Assembly (NCBI GenBank): GCA_937863685.1
Contig: CALMGM010000005.1
Coordinates: 744,001-808,000 of the forward strand
Direction of reading: 5' to 3'
Source: an uncultured bacterium
GTDB lineage: Bacteria; Edwardsbacteria; AC1; EtOH8
DNA length: 64,000 bases
Position numbers and translations under genes: made by a program
Notes under the pieces: generated by a model
Seen by the model: only the letters and a program-made list of their open reading frames with translations
Database searches by the model: none
What the model was told of the DNA's origin: nothing
Shown: positions 23,554 to 31,219 of the stretch, piece after piece
Numbering within the stretch: position 1 is the first letter of the stretch
How the letters are laid out: each line of letters begins with the position of its first letter

Positions 23554-24423
23554 TTAGGTTTCGGCCAGCACTACGCCTCCGATCAGGGTCAATCCGCCGA
23601 CGACCAGCCCGGCGGTTAGTTTTTCCCCCAAAAGCAATATACTCGACAGCACCGTTACCAATGGAATCAGGTAGATCACCACCCCCAGCCGGGCGGCCTC
23701 GGTGTGTTTTAAGGCCCATGACCAAACCAGAAAGCCGAATATGGTGCACGCCAAGGTCAGGAAGGCCAGCGCCGCCCAAGCTGTTGCCGGCAATAGCAAC
23801 ATGTTTTTGGGCAGGAAGAAAACCAGCGGCAGGCTGCCCCATAATATGGCCGACATGGTGACCAGATTGGAGTCCTCCCGGCCCACCAAAGGCTTTCCCA
23901 CGATGGTGTATATCGCCCAGGATAAGGGAGCCCCTAAAGTGATCAGCACTCCCCACAGATAGTTGAAGTTGATGGGGTCGTTGGTCCCCCAACGCACCAC
24001 CGCAAACAGGCCGCCGAAGGAAACGATTATCCCTAACAGTTTTCTGGCGGTGATTTTTTCCCGCAAGGCCAGCTTGGAGGCGATCAGGGTGAAGATGGGA
24101 GAGAGGCCGACCATCAGGCTGGCGGTTCCGGCTGCTATTTTGGTCTCGCCGAAGTTGAGGGCCAGGTTATATCCCAGGACGCCGGTAATTCCGTATAGCG
24201 AGATACCCCGCCACTCTTTGCCCCAGACCGTCAGCATCCTTTTGGGGCCATAGAAGACCAGCATTACTGCCAAGACTATCGCCCCCGCCGGAACATACCG
24301 CAGAGCGGTAAGTCCCATGGCCGAAAACTTCTGAACCTCCAGAAGATACTTGATGGCCACAAAAGCAATACCCCAGGAGAGCACCACCAAAAGCATCAAG
24401 AAAAGCAGTAATATTTTTTTCAT
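23554..24423 (-). CDS. EamA/DMT-superfamily transporter (copy 1)
   Basis: A 289-residue inner-membrane protein with ten predicted helices arranged as two EamA repeats. Typical elements are visible: LSWGIAFVAIKYLLE in the first helix, GVLGYNLALNFGETKIAAGTASLMVGLSPIF in the first repeat and a second-repeat counterpart ending PLVTVLSSILLLGEKLTAGLVVGG. Substrate unknown (drug/metabolite exporter superfamily). It lies 12 bp after the second EamA gene in the same direction; the two are likely cotranscribed. Confidence 0.9.
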   Translation of the reverse strand: MKKILLLFLMLLVVLSWGIAFVAIKYLLEVQKFSAMGLTALRYVPAGAIVLAVMLVFYGPKRMLTVWGKEWRGISLYGITGVLGYNLALNFGETKIAAGTASLMVGLSPIFTLIASKLALREKITARKLLGIIVSFGGLFAVVRWGTNDPINFNYLWGVLITLGAPLSWAIYTIVGKPLVGREDSNLVTMSAILWGSLPLVFFLPKNMLLLPATAWAALAFLTLACTIFGFLVWSWALKHTEAARLGVVIYLIPLVTVLSSILLLGEKLTAGLVVGGLTLIGGVVLAET

Positions 24424-24435
24424 ATATTTCCCGGA

Positions 24436-25287
24436 TTATTTTCCCAGTTCGGCGGTGAGCGTTCCCGCCAGAATCATGCCCGCCCCCAGCCATCCGGCCA
24501 TCGGCAGCCTCTCGCCGAAAAGCACAAAGGCAAAACCGGCCGCAAACAGGGGCTCCATGGTATAGATGATGGCGGCCCTGGTGGCGGTGGTCCTTCTCTG
24601 CCAGTAGAACTGGATGACCAGCGCCCCGGCGGTGGCCAGCAGGCTGGTGACGGCCAGGTCCAGCGGGAGGCTTTGTGACCATTGCCAATGCGGTTTTTCC
24701 AAAAGACCGACGAAGATGGTCGAAAGAACAATGGTGGTTAATATTTGGACCATGATCATGTCCAGAGGCTGGTGTTTTTGGGTGAACTTCTGCACTAGCA
24801 CCACCTCCACTGCAAAGCTGACGGCGCAGAGGACGGTCAGCAAGTCTCCCTTGTTGAAACCGCCGGTCTCGGGACGGGAGAGGAAGTACAACCCCGCGGC
24901 AGCCAGGATCACCCCCAGTATCTGCCAACCATCACTTTTGGTTTTCAACATCACTATCGAGAGAGAGGGCACCATTATCACACACATTCCGGTGATAAAT
25001 GCCGATCGAGTGGCGGTGGTGTGAACTAACCCCGCAGTCTGGAAGGCAAATCCGGCGAATAAAAATATCCCTATCAGCATTCCATCACGCCAGCCCTCCC
25101 GGGAAAGTTTTTTCAAACCCTTATAGCAGAACGGCAGCAGCACCAGCCCGGCCAGCAGAAACCGCACCCCCAAAAAGATCAAGGGGGAGGTGTACAGCAT
25201 GGCATCCTTGACCGCCACAAAGGTGACGCCCCAAAAGAAGGTTGCCAGAAGCAGCCACATATCGGCTTTTAGGTGCTGGTCTTGCAT
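24436..25287 (-). CDS. EamA/DMT-superfamily transporter (copy 2)
   Basis: A 283-residue ten-helix transporter with two EamA repeats (LLLATFFWGVTFVAVKDAML; TMEPLFAAGFAFVLFGERLPMAGWLGAG). It is the upstream member of a tandem pair with 23554-24423 but the two differ clearly in sequence, so the duplication is old or they were recruited separately. No good Shine-Dalgarno is seen; TATAAT stands about 9 bases before the ATG, so the mRNA may have a very short leader. Confidence 0.9.
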   Translation of the reverse strand: MQDQHLKADMWLLLATFFWGVTFVAVKDAMLYTSPLIFLGVRFLLAGLVLLPFCYKGLKKLSREGWRDGMLIGIFLFAGFAFQTAGLVHTTATRSAFITGMCVIMVPSLSIVMLKTKSDGWQILGVILAAAGLYFLSRPETGGFNKGDLLTVLCAVSFAVEVVLVQKFTQKHQPLDMIMVQILTTIVLSTIFVGLLEKPHWQWSQSLPLDLAVTSLLATAGALVIQFYWQRRTTATRAAIIYTMEPLFAAGFAFVLFGERLPMAGWLGAGMILAGTLTAELGK

Positions 25288-25436: not shown

Positions 25437-26042
25437 TTACATCGCATACTGAACTTTATTTATGAATCCTTTATTTCGCATTATCCTTTGTGTCTTCTCC
25501 AATCGTTGTTTAATATTCCCAACCATATTTGTCATGTAATCAATTTTTGAATCCCGCACGTTCAATTTTTTAAGGACATAATCCATATTCTGGTAATTGA
25601 AATAATCCTTAAGGTAATCGGCCATATTGCTGCTTGTGGCCATCCTGTCGAAGAGTTTGTAACCTGGCTCCCGCTTTCCTTGACTGGTCAGACGATTCCA
25701 GATCTCCCGTTTGGTTTTTCCTTTATAGCAATACAGCGTCCACTGCTCGAGATACATCTCATGGGCCAGTGCTAAAATACTCTTTTGGGCCTTGTGCAGT
25801 TGGGCTTCCAAAATAACCATATCGCTGAAGATATTTCTCGGCACCCAGAAATATGCCTCGGCGGGGCCATTTTCGGTTTCCTTTAAAAAATTGTCCAACT
25901 GGTAGCCCTGTTTGCAGCGATTGCAGCTCATCTCCCAGTACTCTTCAAACAGTCCGTTGCGGTCATGAAATTTTTTTACGGTGAAAAAGCTCTGGCCGCA
26001 GGGACATTGGTGTTTCTGTTCAGATATACTGTTGTTATACAT
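25437..26042 (-). CDS. Hypothetical protein with N-terminal zinc-ribbon-like cysteines
   Basis: A 201-residue protein of no recognised family. The N-terminus has CPCGQSFF and, 26 residues later, CNRCKQGY, a plausible four-cysteine zinc ribbon. The rest is predicted helical and basic, with a coiled-coil-like end (MTNMVGNIKQRLEKTQRIMRNK). The sequence KGKTKREIWNRLTSQGKREPGYKLFDRM resembles a helix-turn-helix arrangement. A nucleic-acid-binding role is a guess. AAAGG lies 6 bases before the ATG. It is flanked by AT-rich DNA on the upstream side (26043-26407). Confidence 0.65.
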   Translation of the reverse strand: MYNNSISEQKHQCPCGQSFFTVKKFHDRNGLFEEYWEMSCNRCKQGYQLDNFLKETENGPAEAYFWVPRNIFSDMVILEAQLHKAQKSILALAHEMYLEQWTLYCYKGKTKREIWNRLTSQGKREPGYKLFDRMATSSNMADYLKDYFNYQNMDYVLKKLNVRDSKIDYMTNMVGNIKQRLEKTQRIMRNKGFINKVQYAM

Positions 26043-26407
26043 TTTTAGCCTTTCAAATTTTTATCTTTATTGCTATATAATGAATATCGTTGAATATATG
26101 AATATTTCATGCCATTATTTATGCAAATTATTGTAATATATAACTCGTTGGATTATAAAGCTTAATAACTATATTTTTTATTAAGGTTAAGACCGTCAAT
26201 AAAAAATAAATGAGATGCTAATAAACGTTAGCATCTCATTTAACATGCTCAACATATGTTCTTTTATATCATTATGTTATGATATATAATTTCTGATACT
26301 TATTTATATCACCTATAACATTTTTTTGCAAATAAATTTTATAAAGTCATGCTAAACAGCTTTATACAAACATGTCATTGGTTTACAAATGTATATTATA
26401 AGGGTTG
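26043..26407. other. AT-rich intergenic stretch
   Basis: 365 bp of very AT-rich DNA between the sigma-54 activator gene and the unknown gene downstream. It holds the terminator at 26208-26241 and probably the promoter of the downstream gene. No ORF with a ribosome site was seen. Confidence 0.7.
26208..26241 (-). terminator. Terminator of the sigma-54 activator gene
   Basis: A perfect 14-bp stem (26208-26221 with 26228-26241), 6-base loop, followed on the minus strand by TTTATTTTTTATTG. A textbook intrinsic terminator, though 170 bp past the stop codon. Confidence 0.8.
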
Positions 26408-28444
26408 TTATATTACTGTTATCTCAATTTTTGGACAGTATTTAAATGTGTACTCAATTGAGGGTAGTGCTTTATTTAAGAATTGACAGGCCCCCTGAAG
26501 AATCATTGAAAAAGCAACCTGATATTTACCTGATTGTTTTATCGTGCAACTAAAATCATCAACAATAACGGTTTCGCCTGGTTCAATTGTTTTAGGAAGA
26601 ATAACATTAAAGCTATCTATTACCTTCATTTTATCGGCTTCAATCCATTCTATTTGTACATAATACTGTCCGGCATGTTTAGCGGTTGGTCGATGGCTTT
26701 TACATATGGACAGCCAGGGATTACGGCCAGTATTAGTCACTTTTAACCTAATATGAATCTTGCTGCCGGCTTTTACTGTGGTGGGTGTTACCTCCAATAT
26801 TTCGATCTCAGCCTTGTTGCCCCTGGCCATTCGTTTGGGGAATCTTTTAGCCAGCTTGGAATTTGGGTGAGAAATATTAAGGCCCTTTACCTTCTTAGTA
26901 AGTCCCATCCGTGAAATTCCCAGGTTCTTGGCCGTTGCTGTTATGTTATAACCGTTGTTTTGTAGAGCGCTAACAACCAACATTCTTTCATGCATCCGCA
27001 CCATCTCCTTGAGGTTCCCTACCCGCAGCTCCATTTCCCCGCACATCATATCACCCGGCAGTAGATCCTCATTGATCATCTCTTCCGGATCATGTGCCAA
27101 GGCATATTGAATCGCCTTCTCCAGCTCCCGCACATTGCCCGGCCAGCGATAGTTGATCATCACTGCCTGGGCACGGGGAGAGAACCTGTAACTCCTGCCG
27201 TGCCCGTATTTCCTAAGGAACAACTCTACCAGATCGTTAAAATACTTCATTCTCTCCCGTAGTGGAGGCAGATGGAGAACTGCACCTTTCAGACGATAGT
27301 ACAAGTCCTCCCGGAATTGTCCCTTATCAACCATATCCTTGAGATTGCGGTTGGTGCAGGCTATCACCCGTACATTTACCGCCTTTGGCCGGCGGGCTCC
27401 TATCCGCATCACCAGCTGATCATTCAGTATTCTCAGCAATTTGGGCTGCATGGCCAGAGGAAGTTCGGATATCTCATCCAGCATGATGGTTCCGCCATCA
27501 GCCAGTTCGAACTTGCCGGCCCTGCCATCGCTTTTGGCCCCGGTAAAACTGCCAGGTTCATAGCCGAAAAGCTCCGATTCCACCAGGTGTTCCGGCAGAG
27601 CCGTACAGTCGATCACCACAAAGGGGCATTTGGAGCGGGACGAAGAGTAATGTACCGCACGGGCCATCACCTCTTTGCCGGTCCCGCTTTCGCCGGTGAT
27701 CATAAAAGACAAATCGCTGTTGGCCAAGACCATGGCCTGCTTCCGAAGTTCGGGGCCGATGCCCACTACGGCATCCAGATCGGTGGTGGTCAGGGCCTCC
27801 TGGCGGATGAATCGCAGGGTCTCCCGCCTCTCCTCCTCCAGGCATAGGATGATCTTATCGCTCTGTTGGTAGGTGCTGACCAGCAAGTGAACCTCGTTGT
27901 CGCCTTTTCTGAACAGTACCTCTTTCTTGTAGGCCGGGGTCTTCCAGAAATCGGGCGGTAAAAATTCCCCCAAGTTATCCATGGACCACAACTTGACCGA
28001 GCCGGCATGCAAGCCCACCCCCAGCGTTACCTTGGCCGCGCTGTTCAGGTAGAGCACCAGGCCTCTGTTGTCCAGCAGCACCACGCCCTCGCTCATGTTG
28101 TCCATGATGAAGAAGCGGAACTCGTCCTCGATCTGTGACCGCTCCTGTTCCAAGCTTAGAACCGTGCCCCGGGCCAAGGGCTGGGTACTGGCCAGAAACT
28201 GGGTCCTTTCGCCATCTCGCGTGATCATCACGTCTGTCAATTGAAGCGATTTTTTCCAAAAACCCGGAGGGTACAACTCTCCCAGTTCTTCCAATCGTGG
28301 CCAGGGGGGGGCTTCGGCCAACGACAGCATTTTCCTTCCGGCCCGATTGCAGTACAGGATGGTCCCTGTTTCATCGAGATGAATAACCCCGCTGTTAAGC
28401 ATGTCAAGGATGGTCTGATGGTTTTGTTCCATAATAAATGTCAT
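26408..28444 (-). CDS. Sigma-54-dependent activator: PAS-PAS-AAA+-Fis HTH plus C-terminal beta-sandwich
   Basis: A 678-residue bacterial enhancer-binding protein. Two PAS domains (about 10-100 and 110-205) sense an unknown signal. The AAA+ domain (about 220-450) has Walker A GESGTGKE at 251-258, the sigma-54 contact loop as GSFTGA at 298-303 (GAFTGA in most members), Walker B GTIMLDE near 318 and the WPGNVRELEKA sensor region. A Fis-type HTH follows (485-525, NGYNITATAKNLGISRMGL). Unusually, about 130 further residues form a beta-sandwich like CARDB/Ig-type domains (EVTPTTVKAGSKIHIRLKVTNTG). ATG 28444 and ATG 28432 are both possible starts; neither has a strong ribosome site. No obvious -24/-12 target was found nearby. 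Confidence 0.92.
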   Translation of the reverse strand: MTFIMEQNHQTILDMLNSGVIHLDETGTILYCNRAGRKMLSLAEAPPWPRLEELGELYPPGFWKKSLQLTDVMITRDGERTQFLASTQPLARGTVLSLEQERSQIEDEFRFFIMDNMSEGVVLLDNRGLVLYLNSAAKVTLGVGLHAGSVKLWSMDNLGEFLPPDFWKTPAYKKEVLFRKGDNEVHLLVSTYQQSDKIILCLEEERRETLRFIRQEALTTTDLDAVVGIGPELRKQAMVLANSDLSFMITGESGTGKEVMARAVHYSSSRSKCPFVVIDCTALPEHLVESELFGYEPGSFTGAKSDGRAGKFELADGGTIMLDEISELPLAMQPKLLRILNDQLVMRIGARRPKAVNVRVIACTNRNLKDMVDKGQFREDLYYRLKGAVLHLPPLRERMKYFNDLVELFLRKYGHGRSYRFSPRAQAVMINYRWPGNVRELEKAIQYALAHDPEEMINEDLLPGDMMCGEMELRVGNLKEMVRMHERMLVVSALQNNGYNITATAKNLGISRMGLTKKVKGLNISHPNSKLAKRFPKRMARGNKAEIEILEVTPTTVKAGSKIHIRLKVTNTGRNPWLSICKSHRPTAKHAGQYYVQIEWIEADKMKVIDSFNVILPKTIEPGETVIVDDFSCTIKQSGKYQVAFSMILQGACQFLNKALPSIEYTFKYCPKIEITVI

Positions 28445-28593: not shown

Positions 28594-29637
28594 CTATACC
28601 GCCAAACCCCGTTCCCTTTCCGAATTCATTTTATTTCCCATCATACCCTCGATACCGTTCAATATCTGCCGGATCTCGCCCCTGGTGGGCGGATAGTAAC
28701 GGTCGGCCGTGCTGAGATTGGGATCCCGGAACAGTTTGATCAGTTTGCCCCGGCTCTCCCGAGCGATAGTGGTTGACAGCTTCTCGCCCGGCATGTATTT
28801 GGATTCTTCCTGATTGCGGAAGGAGGGATTTATCATCAGCAGGGACAGGGCATGCTTGCGATAGAGGGAGGCCGCCCTGACGGTCTCCCGGTAAGCCGGC
28901 TCATCGAAGATGTCGGGGCAATGAACGGTCAGGGGCTCGGGATAGCCGTCGCTGAGCAGGATGACCAGATTGGTGGAGCCGGGCTTGCGGAACTTCTCCA
29001 GCCGCACCATGGCCAGGGCTTTTAACAGCCCGTCGGCCAGCGGGCTTTCTCCCTGAACCTTGAGGCTCATCAATCCCTTGGTAACCACCCGGTAATTATG
29101 CGTGGGATGGTTGAGTATCTTGGCCTGCATGCCCTGCAAGGAGATCAGCCCGATGCGGTCCTGATGCAGCTTGAAATAACCGGTCAGGGAATCCAGAATC
29201 TCGGCGAAGATTTTGATGAAGGGGAAGGTGGAACGGCTGACGTCCACCAAAAGCACCAGGGTCATGCTCTGGCGCTCCAGCTTCTCCCAGCCCACAAAGT
29301 CGCCGGGCCCGATGCTGAATTCCTTCCGTGACAGAGAATATTTCCCGCCGATCAGAGAGCTGACCACCGTCTGCAGCGGTGCCAGGGTGTTCTCCCCGGC
29401 CCGGAAGCGGACGGCCTTGATGTTGCGTCCGGACCGGTCGCTGATGACCGATTTACGCTTCTTGCTGCCGCGCACGGTTCTTGATTTTAGGCGACTTATT
29501 TTATTAAGGAATTTGAAGAAGGCTTTTTTTAGCTGGCTGAAGGTGCCGGGAGGCTCCTGGAACAAAACCGGGGCCGCTTTGTCCTGGGTTTGGGAGCGAA
29601 GAAGGATGACCGGTCTTTTCTTTTTTCTAAACGGCAA
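28594..29637 (-). CDS. vWA-domain protein, ChlD/CobT-like chelatase subunit (probably made by frameshift fusion)
   Basis: At least 347 residues. A Lys/Arg-rich linker (about 1-75) leads to a von Willebrand A domain with the MIDAS motif DVSRS at 132-136 and a later SPLADGL segment supplying the threonine-loop position. This is the layout of the C-terminal half of magnesium/cobalt chelatase medium subunits (ChlD, CobT). The frame has no ATG before the vWA core; the only near-terminal start is TTG 29637 without a clear ribosome site. The frame stays open upstream across the end of the ATPase gene, so a -1 shift at the A9 run (29683-29691) would give a fused protein of about 734 residues with about 16 extra linker residues. 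Confidence 0.82.
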   Translation of the reverse strand: MPFRKKKRPVILLRSQTQDKAAPVLFQEPPGTFSQLKKAFFKFLNKISRLKSRTVRGSKKRKSVISDRSGRNIKAVRFRAGENTLAPLQTVVSSLIGGKYSLSRKEFSIGPGDFVGWEKLERQSMTLVLLVDVSRSTFPFIKIFAEILDSLTGYFKLHQDRIGLISLQGMQAKILNHPTHNYRVVTKGLMSLKVQGESPLADGLLKALAMVRLEKFRKPGSTNLVILLSDGYPEPLTVHCPDIFDEPAYRETVRAASLYRKHALSLLMINPSFRNQEESKYMPGEKLSTTIARESRGKLIKLFRDPNLSTADRYYPPTRGEIRQILNGIEGMMGNKMNSERERGLAV

Positions 29638-29669
29638 TATCTTTTTGGAAAAATCCAGAATTTTTTCAG

Positions 29670-30797
29670 CTATGGATTGCCGTTTTTTTTTATACTTTGT
29701 TGATCGGAGGGGGCAACGGCGGCAACTTCGATCTTCTGCTTGACCATTGTTTTTTGGAGCGGTTCCCTATCCCTGGGCAGGTTTTTATTGAAATTATCCA
29801 TTATTTCATCGGGGGTTGGCGGCTCCAGCAGTCCGCCGTCCCGGGTGCGGTGTATCAATGTCAGCTCGGAGGCCAGCAGGATATCGCTGGAAATAACATC
29901 GCTGCACCCGTTAAGGGCGGCCAGGGTCATGGCGGTTTTGATTATCACGATATCGGGCCGCTGGCCGTCCACCTTGAGAGCAGCGCAGGAGGCGGCCACC
30001 GAATCTATCAGCTCCGGAGAGACCGTCACCCGGGGCAGAAGCTCCCTGGCGGAGAGTATCTGTTTTCCTGTCTCCGCCTCCTGTCCGGCAAACTTTTCAT
30101 GAAAAGCGTCCCGGTCGTTCTCGAACAGCAGATTGTTCTGCACCACCTGGGAGCGGACGGCTGGATCCCTAATGGTCTCTATCTTTACGCACAGCGGAAA
30201 ACGGTCTAGGATCTGCGGCCGCAGATCACCCTCCTCGGGATTCATGGTTCCCACCAGCACAAAATCCGCCGGATGCGAAACCGAGATGCCCTCGCGCTCG
30301 ATGGTATTCCAGTGGGTGGAGGCGGCATCCAGGATGTCGTCCACCAGATGGTCCGGCAGGAGGTTGACCTCGTCCACGTAGAGGATGTTGCCGTTGGCCT
30401 GGCCCAGAATACCCGGCAGGATCACCTTCTGGCCGGTCTTTAAGAGCTTTTCGATGTCGATGCTTCCGATCAGCCGGTCCTCGGTGCAGCTAAGGGGAAG
30501 GTTGATTATCCTCATCTTCCGGGTGACAGCCGGATGGTCCGGCCTTTCGCGGCACAGCGAACAGAAATCCTGGGGCTTTGCCGGATGGCAGTTGAATATA
30601 CATCCGTCAACCGCTTTGCCCTCCGGCAGGATGGATTCCACCGAATGAACGATGGTGCTCTTGCCGGTACCCTTGGGTCCGCTGATCAGCAGTCCGCCTA
30701 TCCTGGGATTGACGATGTTGGCCAGATAGGCATATTTCAGCTTATCCTGACCCAGGATGGCGGAGAAAAGGAAACGTCTGTTTTGGGAGATATTCAT
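29670..30797 (-). CDS. ChlI/BchI-like AAA+ ATPase (chelatase small-subunit type)
   Basis: A 375-residue AAA+ protein similar to the ATPase module of Mg/Co chelatases. It begins FLFSAILGQDKLKYAYLANIVNPRIGG, has Walker A GPKGTGKS at 40-47 and Walker B GNILYVDEVNLL, plus a GTMNPEEGDLRPQILDRF sensor segment diagnostic for ChlI/BchI. A CxxxC...CxxC cluster (C66, C70, C79, C82) is present as in many ChlI relatives and could bind zinc. The metal and tetrapyrrole cannot be told from sequence; no CobN/ChlH large subunit is in the window. It follows a Dabb gene by 5 bp. Confidence 0.9.
   Translation of the reverse strand: MNISQNRRFLFSAILGQDKLKYAYLANIVNPRIGGLLISGPKGTGKSTIVHSVESILPEGKAVDGCIFNCHPAKPQDFCSLCRERPDHPAVTRKMRIINLPLSCTEDRLIGSIDIEKLLKTGQKVILPGILGQANGNILYVDEVNLLPDHLVDDILDAASTHWNTIEREGISVSHPADFVLVGTMNPEEGDLRPQILDRFPLCVKIETIRDPAVRSQVVQNNLLFENDRDAFHEKFAGQEAETGKQILSARELLPRVTVSPELIDSVAASCAALKVDGQRPDIVIIKTAMTLAALNGCSDVISSDILLASELTLIHRTRDGGLLEPPTPDEIMDNFNKNLPRDREPLQKTMVKQKIEVAAVAPSDQQSIKKNGNP
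29683..29691 (-). other. A9 slippery run: candidate -1 frameshift or transcriptional slippage site
   Basis: On the minus strand the ATPase gene reads ATA AAA AAA AAC GGC AAT CCA TAG. Slipping back one base on the nine A residues changes the reading to AAA CGG CAA TCC ATA GCT, which runs open into the vWA frame. The zero-frame stop (29670-29672) follows within 4 codons. No upstream Shine-Dalgarno-like stimulator was seen. A homopolymer sequencing error would look the same. Confidence 0.6.
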
Positions 30798-30802
30798 ATC
30801 CT

Positions 30803-31108
30803 TTATACCTTATAATCTACCACCACCCGCTGATGACGCACCTTTCCCAAAAACCCCACGGCCTTAAGGTGCTCGGGATGCTTTTGGTAGACATCCAACC
30901 CGGTCTGGTCGTCAAATTCCGAATATAATGCCAGATCATAGGCCGCATCGGAGGGGTTGATGTTATGCCCGATCTCCAAAAAGCGCACAGTGTCGATCTT
31001 GTCCTTGAGTCCGGCCAGCATCTGGGCGGCTAGCTTCAGGTTCTCCTGTTTGCCCCGGCCGTCGGCATGATCCTTGAATGTCCACAGCACGATATGTTTT
31101 ATCATCAT
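30803..31108 (-). CDS. Stress-responsive alpha/beta-barrel (Dabb) domain protein
   Basis: A 101-residue single-domain protein of the dimeric ferredoxin-like Dabb fold: MMIKHIVLWTFKD at the start, a helix, then FLEIGHNINPSDAAYDLALYSEFDD and YQKHPEHLKAVGFL. Role unknown in bacteria; the fold also hosts small-ligand and haem-chemistry enzymes, which is of interest beside a chelatase-like ATPase. The frame is open to 31159, but the tandem ATGs at 31108/31105 follow AAGGA by 5-8 bases. Likely first gene of the Dabb-ATPase-vWA operon. Confidence 0.85.
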   Translation of the reverse strand: MMIKHIVLWTFKDHADGRGKQENLKLAAQMLAGLKDKIDTVRFLEIGHNINPSDAAYDLALYSEFDDQTGLDVYQKHPEHLKAVGFLGKVRHQRVVVDYKV

Positions 31109-31219
31109 ATTATTCCTTGATTTCAGAATAAGGATACAACTTGACGGTGATAAAATCAAGAAAATTTATTGTTAATTTATTGATAAAGTTTGGTATAATG
31201 AAACGGGGGTTTACTTTAG

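Follow-up and report, generated by a model that had tools for sequence, protein, structure and literature searches.

Introduction

In frameshifted magnesium/cobalt chelatase genes (fs-chlD), a single gene carries a ChlI-like ATPase and, behind it in the -1 frame, a vWA domain. The two parts meet at a poly-A slip site, and the zero frame ends shortly after it. Such genes have been discussed by Atkins et al. 2016 (PMC5009743) and, as far as it is cited in PMC9227772, by Antonov 2020. In E. coli, chelatase cassettes with 7, 9 and 11 A's gave 10, 40 and 63% frameshifting, respectively (Antonov et al. 2013, PMC3711429). Some fs-chlD genes occur in genomes that have neither the large subunit nor the pathways to chlorophyll and B12, and their function is stated as unknown. 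These orphans include the genes of Spirochaeta thermophila and Brevefilum fermentans, which are without ChlH and CobN (Kuznetsov et al. 2022, PMC9227772).

The dnaX gene also gives two AAA+ subunits with a common N-terminus, tau and gamma. Thermus thermophilus uses a run of 9 A's and RNA polymerase slippage, while E. coli uses a heptamer with a Shine-Dalgarno sequence (SD) and a hairpin, where slippage is ribosomal; the product pair is the same. However, dnaX encodes a clamp loader, and its long product lies in the continuous frame, whereas in the gene described here the short product does. In the MoxR-vWA pairs (RavA-ViaA, NorQ-NorD and CoxD-CoxE), an AAA+ ring and a MIDAS-containing vWA protein act on a client. 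These pairs are encoded by separate genes and their ATPase is of a different AAA+ subfamily; the ATPase described here is closest to ChlI.

Here, we analysed a gene of this type in a 64,000-nucleotide stretch of DNA from an uncultured bacterium, hereafter referred to as the window. Our main reading, which we hold with a probability of about three in four on the basis of sequence comparison, is that it is an orphan fs-chlD-type gene, which would give a short ATPase and an ATPase-vWA product by slippage and whose client would be neither CobN nor ChlH. It has the gene order, slip site and short zero-frame ending of fs-chlD, but the window organism is without the large subunit and tetrapyrrole genes, and no stimulatory structure was found at the junction. 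By description, it is like the orphan genes of S. thermophila and B. fermentans, which belong to different phyla. The original prediction had suggested a new variant using a homopolymer. This claim to novelty is not supported, because there are precedents for such a gene, for its homopolymer and for its orphan state, and magnesium-chelatase cassettes of 7A, 9A and 11A have already been measured (PMC3711429). The present analysis adds a new lineage, the absence of HemB, a well-supported clade that lacks CobN and, within that clade, a contrast of slip-site architectures.

Results

The gene is on the minus strand of the window, in a genome of 2.72 Mb in 14 contigs. The ATPase ORF, of the ChlI/BchI-type AAA+ class, runs from an ATG at 30797 to a TAG stop (29672-29670) and encodes 375 amino acids (41.2 kDa). 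The vWA frame is -1 relative to it and is open from 29766 to 28594, back through the ATPase stop, and there is no ATG ahead of the vWA fold. The slip site is a run of nine A's (29683-29691, minus strand; T9 on the plus strand), at which the zero-frame codons are AGT ATA AAA AAA AAC GGC AAT CCA TAG. After the run, the -1 frame continues for 362 amino acids (28594..29682, minus strand) that form a basic linker and the vWA domain. On paper, a slip of one base on A9 gives an ATPase-linker-vWA fusion of 734 amino acids (81.9 kDa), and a peptide spanning the junction would contain SIKKKRQSIAEK. When the run length was varied on paper, A8, A9, A11 and A12 led to the short product, of 375-377 amino acids, while A7 or A10 led to the fusion, of 733-734 amino acids. 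Re-reading of the window sequence thus bears out the original prediction in its coordinates, frames and lengths, in the open vWA frame without an ATG start, and in the fusion of about 734 residues.

The motifs of both parts are intact, as is required of the Mg and Co chelatases (ChlIDH and CobNST). In the ATPase, Walker A is GPKGTGKST (residues 40-48, 30654..30680, minus strand), most positions of which are invariant in 14 sequences, and the Walker B core LYVDE (residues 139-143, 30369..30383, minus strand) is conserved in the same comparison. Cysteines 66, 70, 79 and 82 are invariant in these 14 sequences. The MIDAS DxSxS motif of the vWA part is DVSRS (29230..29244, minus strand). Its residues D147, S149 and S151 are invariant across 14 vWA sequences, as is the later MIDAS aspartate, D245, in SDGYPEP; the MIDAS threonine position is occupied by serine in the window protein. 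The best NCBIfam matches of the ATPase part are TIGR02442, putative cobaltochelatase (1.6e-124), and TIGR02030 (6.1e-101), both scoring below the whole-protein cut-offs, and in the PDB it matches ChlI/BchI chains (2e-118 to 9e-102). The vWA part matches PF13519, VWA_2 (1.6e-8), and the vWA region of the 60 kDa subunit of Mg-chelatase, PDB-id 2x31 (2.5e-10).

The A9 at the slip site is the only run of at least nine A's or T's in the 64-kb window. The genome has 12 such runs, against about 61 predicted by a first-order Markov estimate extrapolated from the composition of the window, and they are therefore depleted. The chance that Lys-Lys-Asn is spelled AAA AAA AAC is about 0.1, given each gene's own codon usage. 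We also considered the other A9 runs of the genome as marks of further frameshift genes and rejected them; those examined in open frames lie in single intact ORFs or in doubtful frames. Three such runs (L043, L044 and L046) are inside apparently intact single ORFs.

The A9 is found unchanged, at the same place, in all three genus relatives, while several nearby 7-nt control runs are interrupted in some or all of them. With the window genome included, 4 of 4 genus genomes share the run, the -1 offset and an early stop in the zero frame. Two genomes of another genus of the family (G006 and G008) have GTAAAAAAAAACAAATAA at the corresponding place, and a third genus, g3 (G005), has A10. In total, A9 with the -1 frame is seen in six family genomes and A10 in a seventh, while the linkers around the run have otherwise diverged. 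Neither refuting outcome named in the original prediction was seen in the family: in no member does the length of the run join the two frames, and the vWA part is everywhere without a normal ATG. Among the remaining genomes of the family, G004 and G009 gave no match to the gene, and in G007 the ATPase portion of the copy is broken, close to the end of a contig. Comparison within the genus gave a dN/dS of 0.06-0.15 for the ATPase and of 0.06-0.08 for the vWA part. The programmed -1 frameshift of the original prediction is strongly supported by this conservation, and a conserved programmed frameshift is very likely.

Beyond the family, a strong ATPase match was found in 50 of the 386 genomes searched. 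No relatives of the gene were found in viral contigs. The frameshifted arrangement with A9 or A10 is seen in many further bacterial families. The frameshifted loci that were read fall into two groups, and the vWA frame is -1 in every one. The first group includes the window's own family, the family f31, a Cloacimonadota MAG (L032), G230, G131, G089 and G117; its run is A9 or A10, except in three f31 genomes (G039, G061 and G062), where it is A7. The second group is a second ATPase clade, of G109, G150, G246 and G286 (L147, L148, L149 and L150), with A9 or A10. The zero-frame stop comes 0-23 nt past the run in 20 of 20 loci. In a FastTree phylogeny of the ATPase domain, the first group, together with G148 and G284, forms a clade of 18 with a support of 0.997, in which the order of families is poorly supported. 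G148 and G284 (L140 and L139) have in-frame ATPase-vWA fusions without a long slip run, and one strong ATPase match each. Therefore, not every member of the clade makes a short product of its own.

Profile search for the large subunit, CobN/ChlH (PF02514), which the original prediction had proposed as a check, found none in the window genome or in 10 of 10 family genomes, of which several are 97-100% complete. It is likewise absent from G039, G061-G063, the Cloacimonadota genome, G230, G131, G089, G117, G148 and G284, so that the 18-member clade has no CobN in any genome checked. As a positive control, the same search recovered CobN in other genomes and in five named control genomes. HemB (PF00490) is absent from the 10 family genomes, four f31 genomes, G230, G089, G117, G148 and G284; it is present in G131. 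CbiC (PF02570) is absent from the 10 family genomes and the f31 genomes. These searches, too, gave matches in named control genomes. Of the second group, two genomes (G109 and G246) have CobN; the search did not find it in G150 or G286. In the window genome (G000), which gave one match at E <= 0.001, there is no separate gene for a small subunit.

The surroundings of the run differ among the loci. In each of the three A7 loci, the run is followed within a few bases by a stable hairpin (z -4.0 to -6.8 at 4-nt spacing), and in two of them an SD-like AGGAGG ends 10 nt before it. These loci belong to a single genus, which is in another phylum. Neither element is present in most of the 17 A9/A10 loci (median z -0.1); the exceptions are G063 (z -5.3) and G089 (z -2.8), which have A9 and a downstream fold. 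Of the three spacings at which fold z was computed, that of 4 nt served for a permutation test, in which the A7 and A9/A10 loci differ with p 0.003; this is effectively one evolutionary contrast, because all three A7 loci come from one genus. At the window junction there is no SD at proper spacing and no significant fold (z from about +0.9 to -1.2, depending on the stretch). A candidate hairpin there, CGGCAAT/ATTGCCG, was rejected: it does not reach significance, and the genus relatives do not form it. A near stop in the third frame would be expected under polymerase slippage. One is found at +14 nt in the window and near the run in the A9/A10 loci, the null for this comparison being vWA coding sequence, which is imperfect.

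Discussion

Based on these data, we propose the following mechanism. Most reading would end soon after the A9 and give an ATPase-only subunit of 375-377 amino acids. The vWA frame would be entered either by a fraction of transcripts, to which RNA polymerase adds an A, or by a fraction of ribosomes, through a -1 slip of tRNA-Lys on A AAA AAA or A AAA AAC, and the 734-amino-acid protein would result. Mixed AAA+ rings of both products are expected, because they share the same motif-intact AAA+ domain. By analogy with dnaX, which makes tau and gamma, the slip frequency would set the number of vWA arms per ring. The MIDAS of the vWA arm may dock a client protein, which the ring would remodel. This client is probably not CobN/ChlH, because the genome has neither the large chelatase subunit nor tetrapyrrole synthesis. 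Most likely, then, the gene encodes an orphan AAA+/vWA protein-remodelling machine in which slippage, possibly by RNA polymerase, would set the subunit ratio.

Other explanations of the gene differ in how well they fit. Homopolymers are error-prone and the genomes are draft assemblies, which would suit a sequencing or assembly error at the A9, or a recently broken gene. We reject this as scarcely credible, because many genomes, each assembled separately, show the -1 relation at a run of 9 or 10 A's, and dN/dS is low in both halves, the vWA part included. It is also very improbable that the vWA protein is made separately, by reinitiation or translational coupling from a non-ATG start just past the ATPase stop. 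A TTG at 29637 and a CTG at 29658 are available in the window, an ATG overlaps the TGA stop in G039, and a GTG lies 8 nt after the stop in G061 and G062. However, the TTG, which is the first ATG, GTG or TTG in the vWA frame, is missing from the other three genus genomes, and the first such codon after the ATPase stop in G006 and G008 is a GTG, 128 and 272 nt away, respectively. Moreover, the ATG of G039 is missing in G061 and G062, which have the same A7-hairpin signal, and separate translation would leave the conserved A9/A10 without explanation. A genuine tetrapyrrole metal chelatase, with the ATPase as small and the fusion as medium subunit, would have to work with an unrecognised large subunit or on salvaged tetrapyrroles. 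The TIGR02442 match, the Mg-chelatase subunits among the PDB relatives and the fs-chlD genes of the CobN-containing G109 and G246 speak for such a role. We nevertheless regard it as unlikely, as the scores fall below the NCBIfam cut-offs and CobN/ChlH, HemB and CbiC are found in 0 of 10 family genomes by searches in which CobN was recovered from controls. For the window genome, the word chelatase in the original prediction is therefore not supported.

Within the preferred reading of an orphan gene read by slippage, two routes to the fusion are to be weighed. In its homopolymer of 9 without stimulators, the window run resembles transcriptional slippage of the Thermus dnaX type, and we lean slightly towards this route over the ribosomal one. 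On its side are also the products predicted on paper for messages of other run lengths, of which A7 and A10 give the fusion. Ribosomal slippage is nearly as likely, because the run contains a slippery heptamer in A AAA AAA; both this heptamer and A AAA AAC lie in phase there, as in ribosomal -1 frameshifting of the dnaX type. That ribosomal -1 frameshifting acts alone here we rate at somewhat below an even chance. The dnaX-like layout of the A7 relatives and the pairing of A9 with a downstream fold in G063 and G089 are in its favour, while the window junction has neither stimulator. The presence of two tRNA-Lys has been discussed as something that might account for the polymerase slippage of Thermus dnaX (Atkins et al. 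2016, PMC5009743), and the window genome has tRNA-Lys for both AAA and AAG. Yet G039, with A7, has both anticodons too, and tRNA-Lys content was rejected as a discriminator.

A broader and more tentative suggestion, to which we give only about one-third credence, concerns the multi-phylum clade of chelatase-type ATPase-vWA genes. Its members might have no chelatase role and serve as a general remodeller whose vWA dose is set by slippage, switching between ribosomal (A7 with stimulators) and polymerase slippage (A9/A10) with the same two products. The clade provides many genomes in which a chelatase role is least likely, as nearly all those checked lack HemB as well. It also offers a natural comparison of the dnaX kind, in which related genes apparently arrive at the same product pair from A runs of different length, the short ones being accompanied by stimulators.

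The neighbouring genes were considered as a clue to the client, and this was not fruitful: EamA pairs recur in two genera only, and f31 has a SIR2-family gene, with nothing common across the phyla. In the window, a Dabb (stress-responsive A/B barrel) ORF (30803..31159, minus strand) ends 5 nt upstream of the ATPase start and is probably on the same transcript; this adjacency is kept in the genus. Two tandem EamA-family transporter genes (23554..25287, minus strand) have counterparts in the genus relatives and in G005, where they come directly after the vWA frame. Between them and the vWA frame, the window has a PAS/sigma-54 activator gene (678 amino acids) and a 201-amino-acid ORF without a Pfam match (25437-28444). 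This segment, at about 25437-28444, looks like an insertion in the window genome, because nothing separates the EamA genes from the vWA frame in the genus relatives L050-L052. In the three loci with A7 and a strong hairpin (L056, L133 and L134, of G039, G061 and G062), a SIR2-family gene, identified by a Pfam match in L056 and as BLAST homologues in L133 and L134, is located upstream of the frameshifted gene, and it is directly adjacent in L056 and L133.
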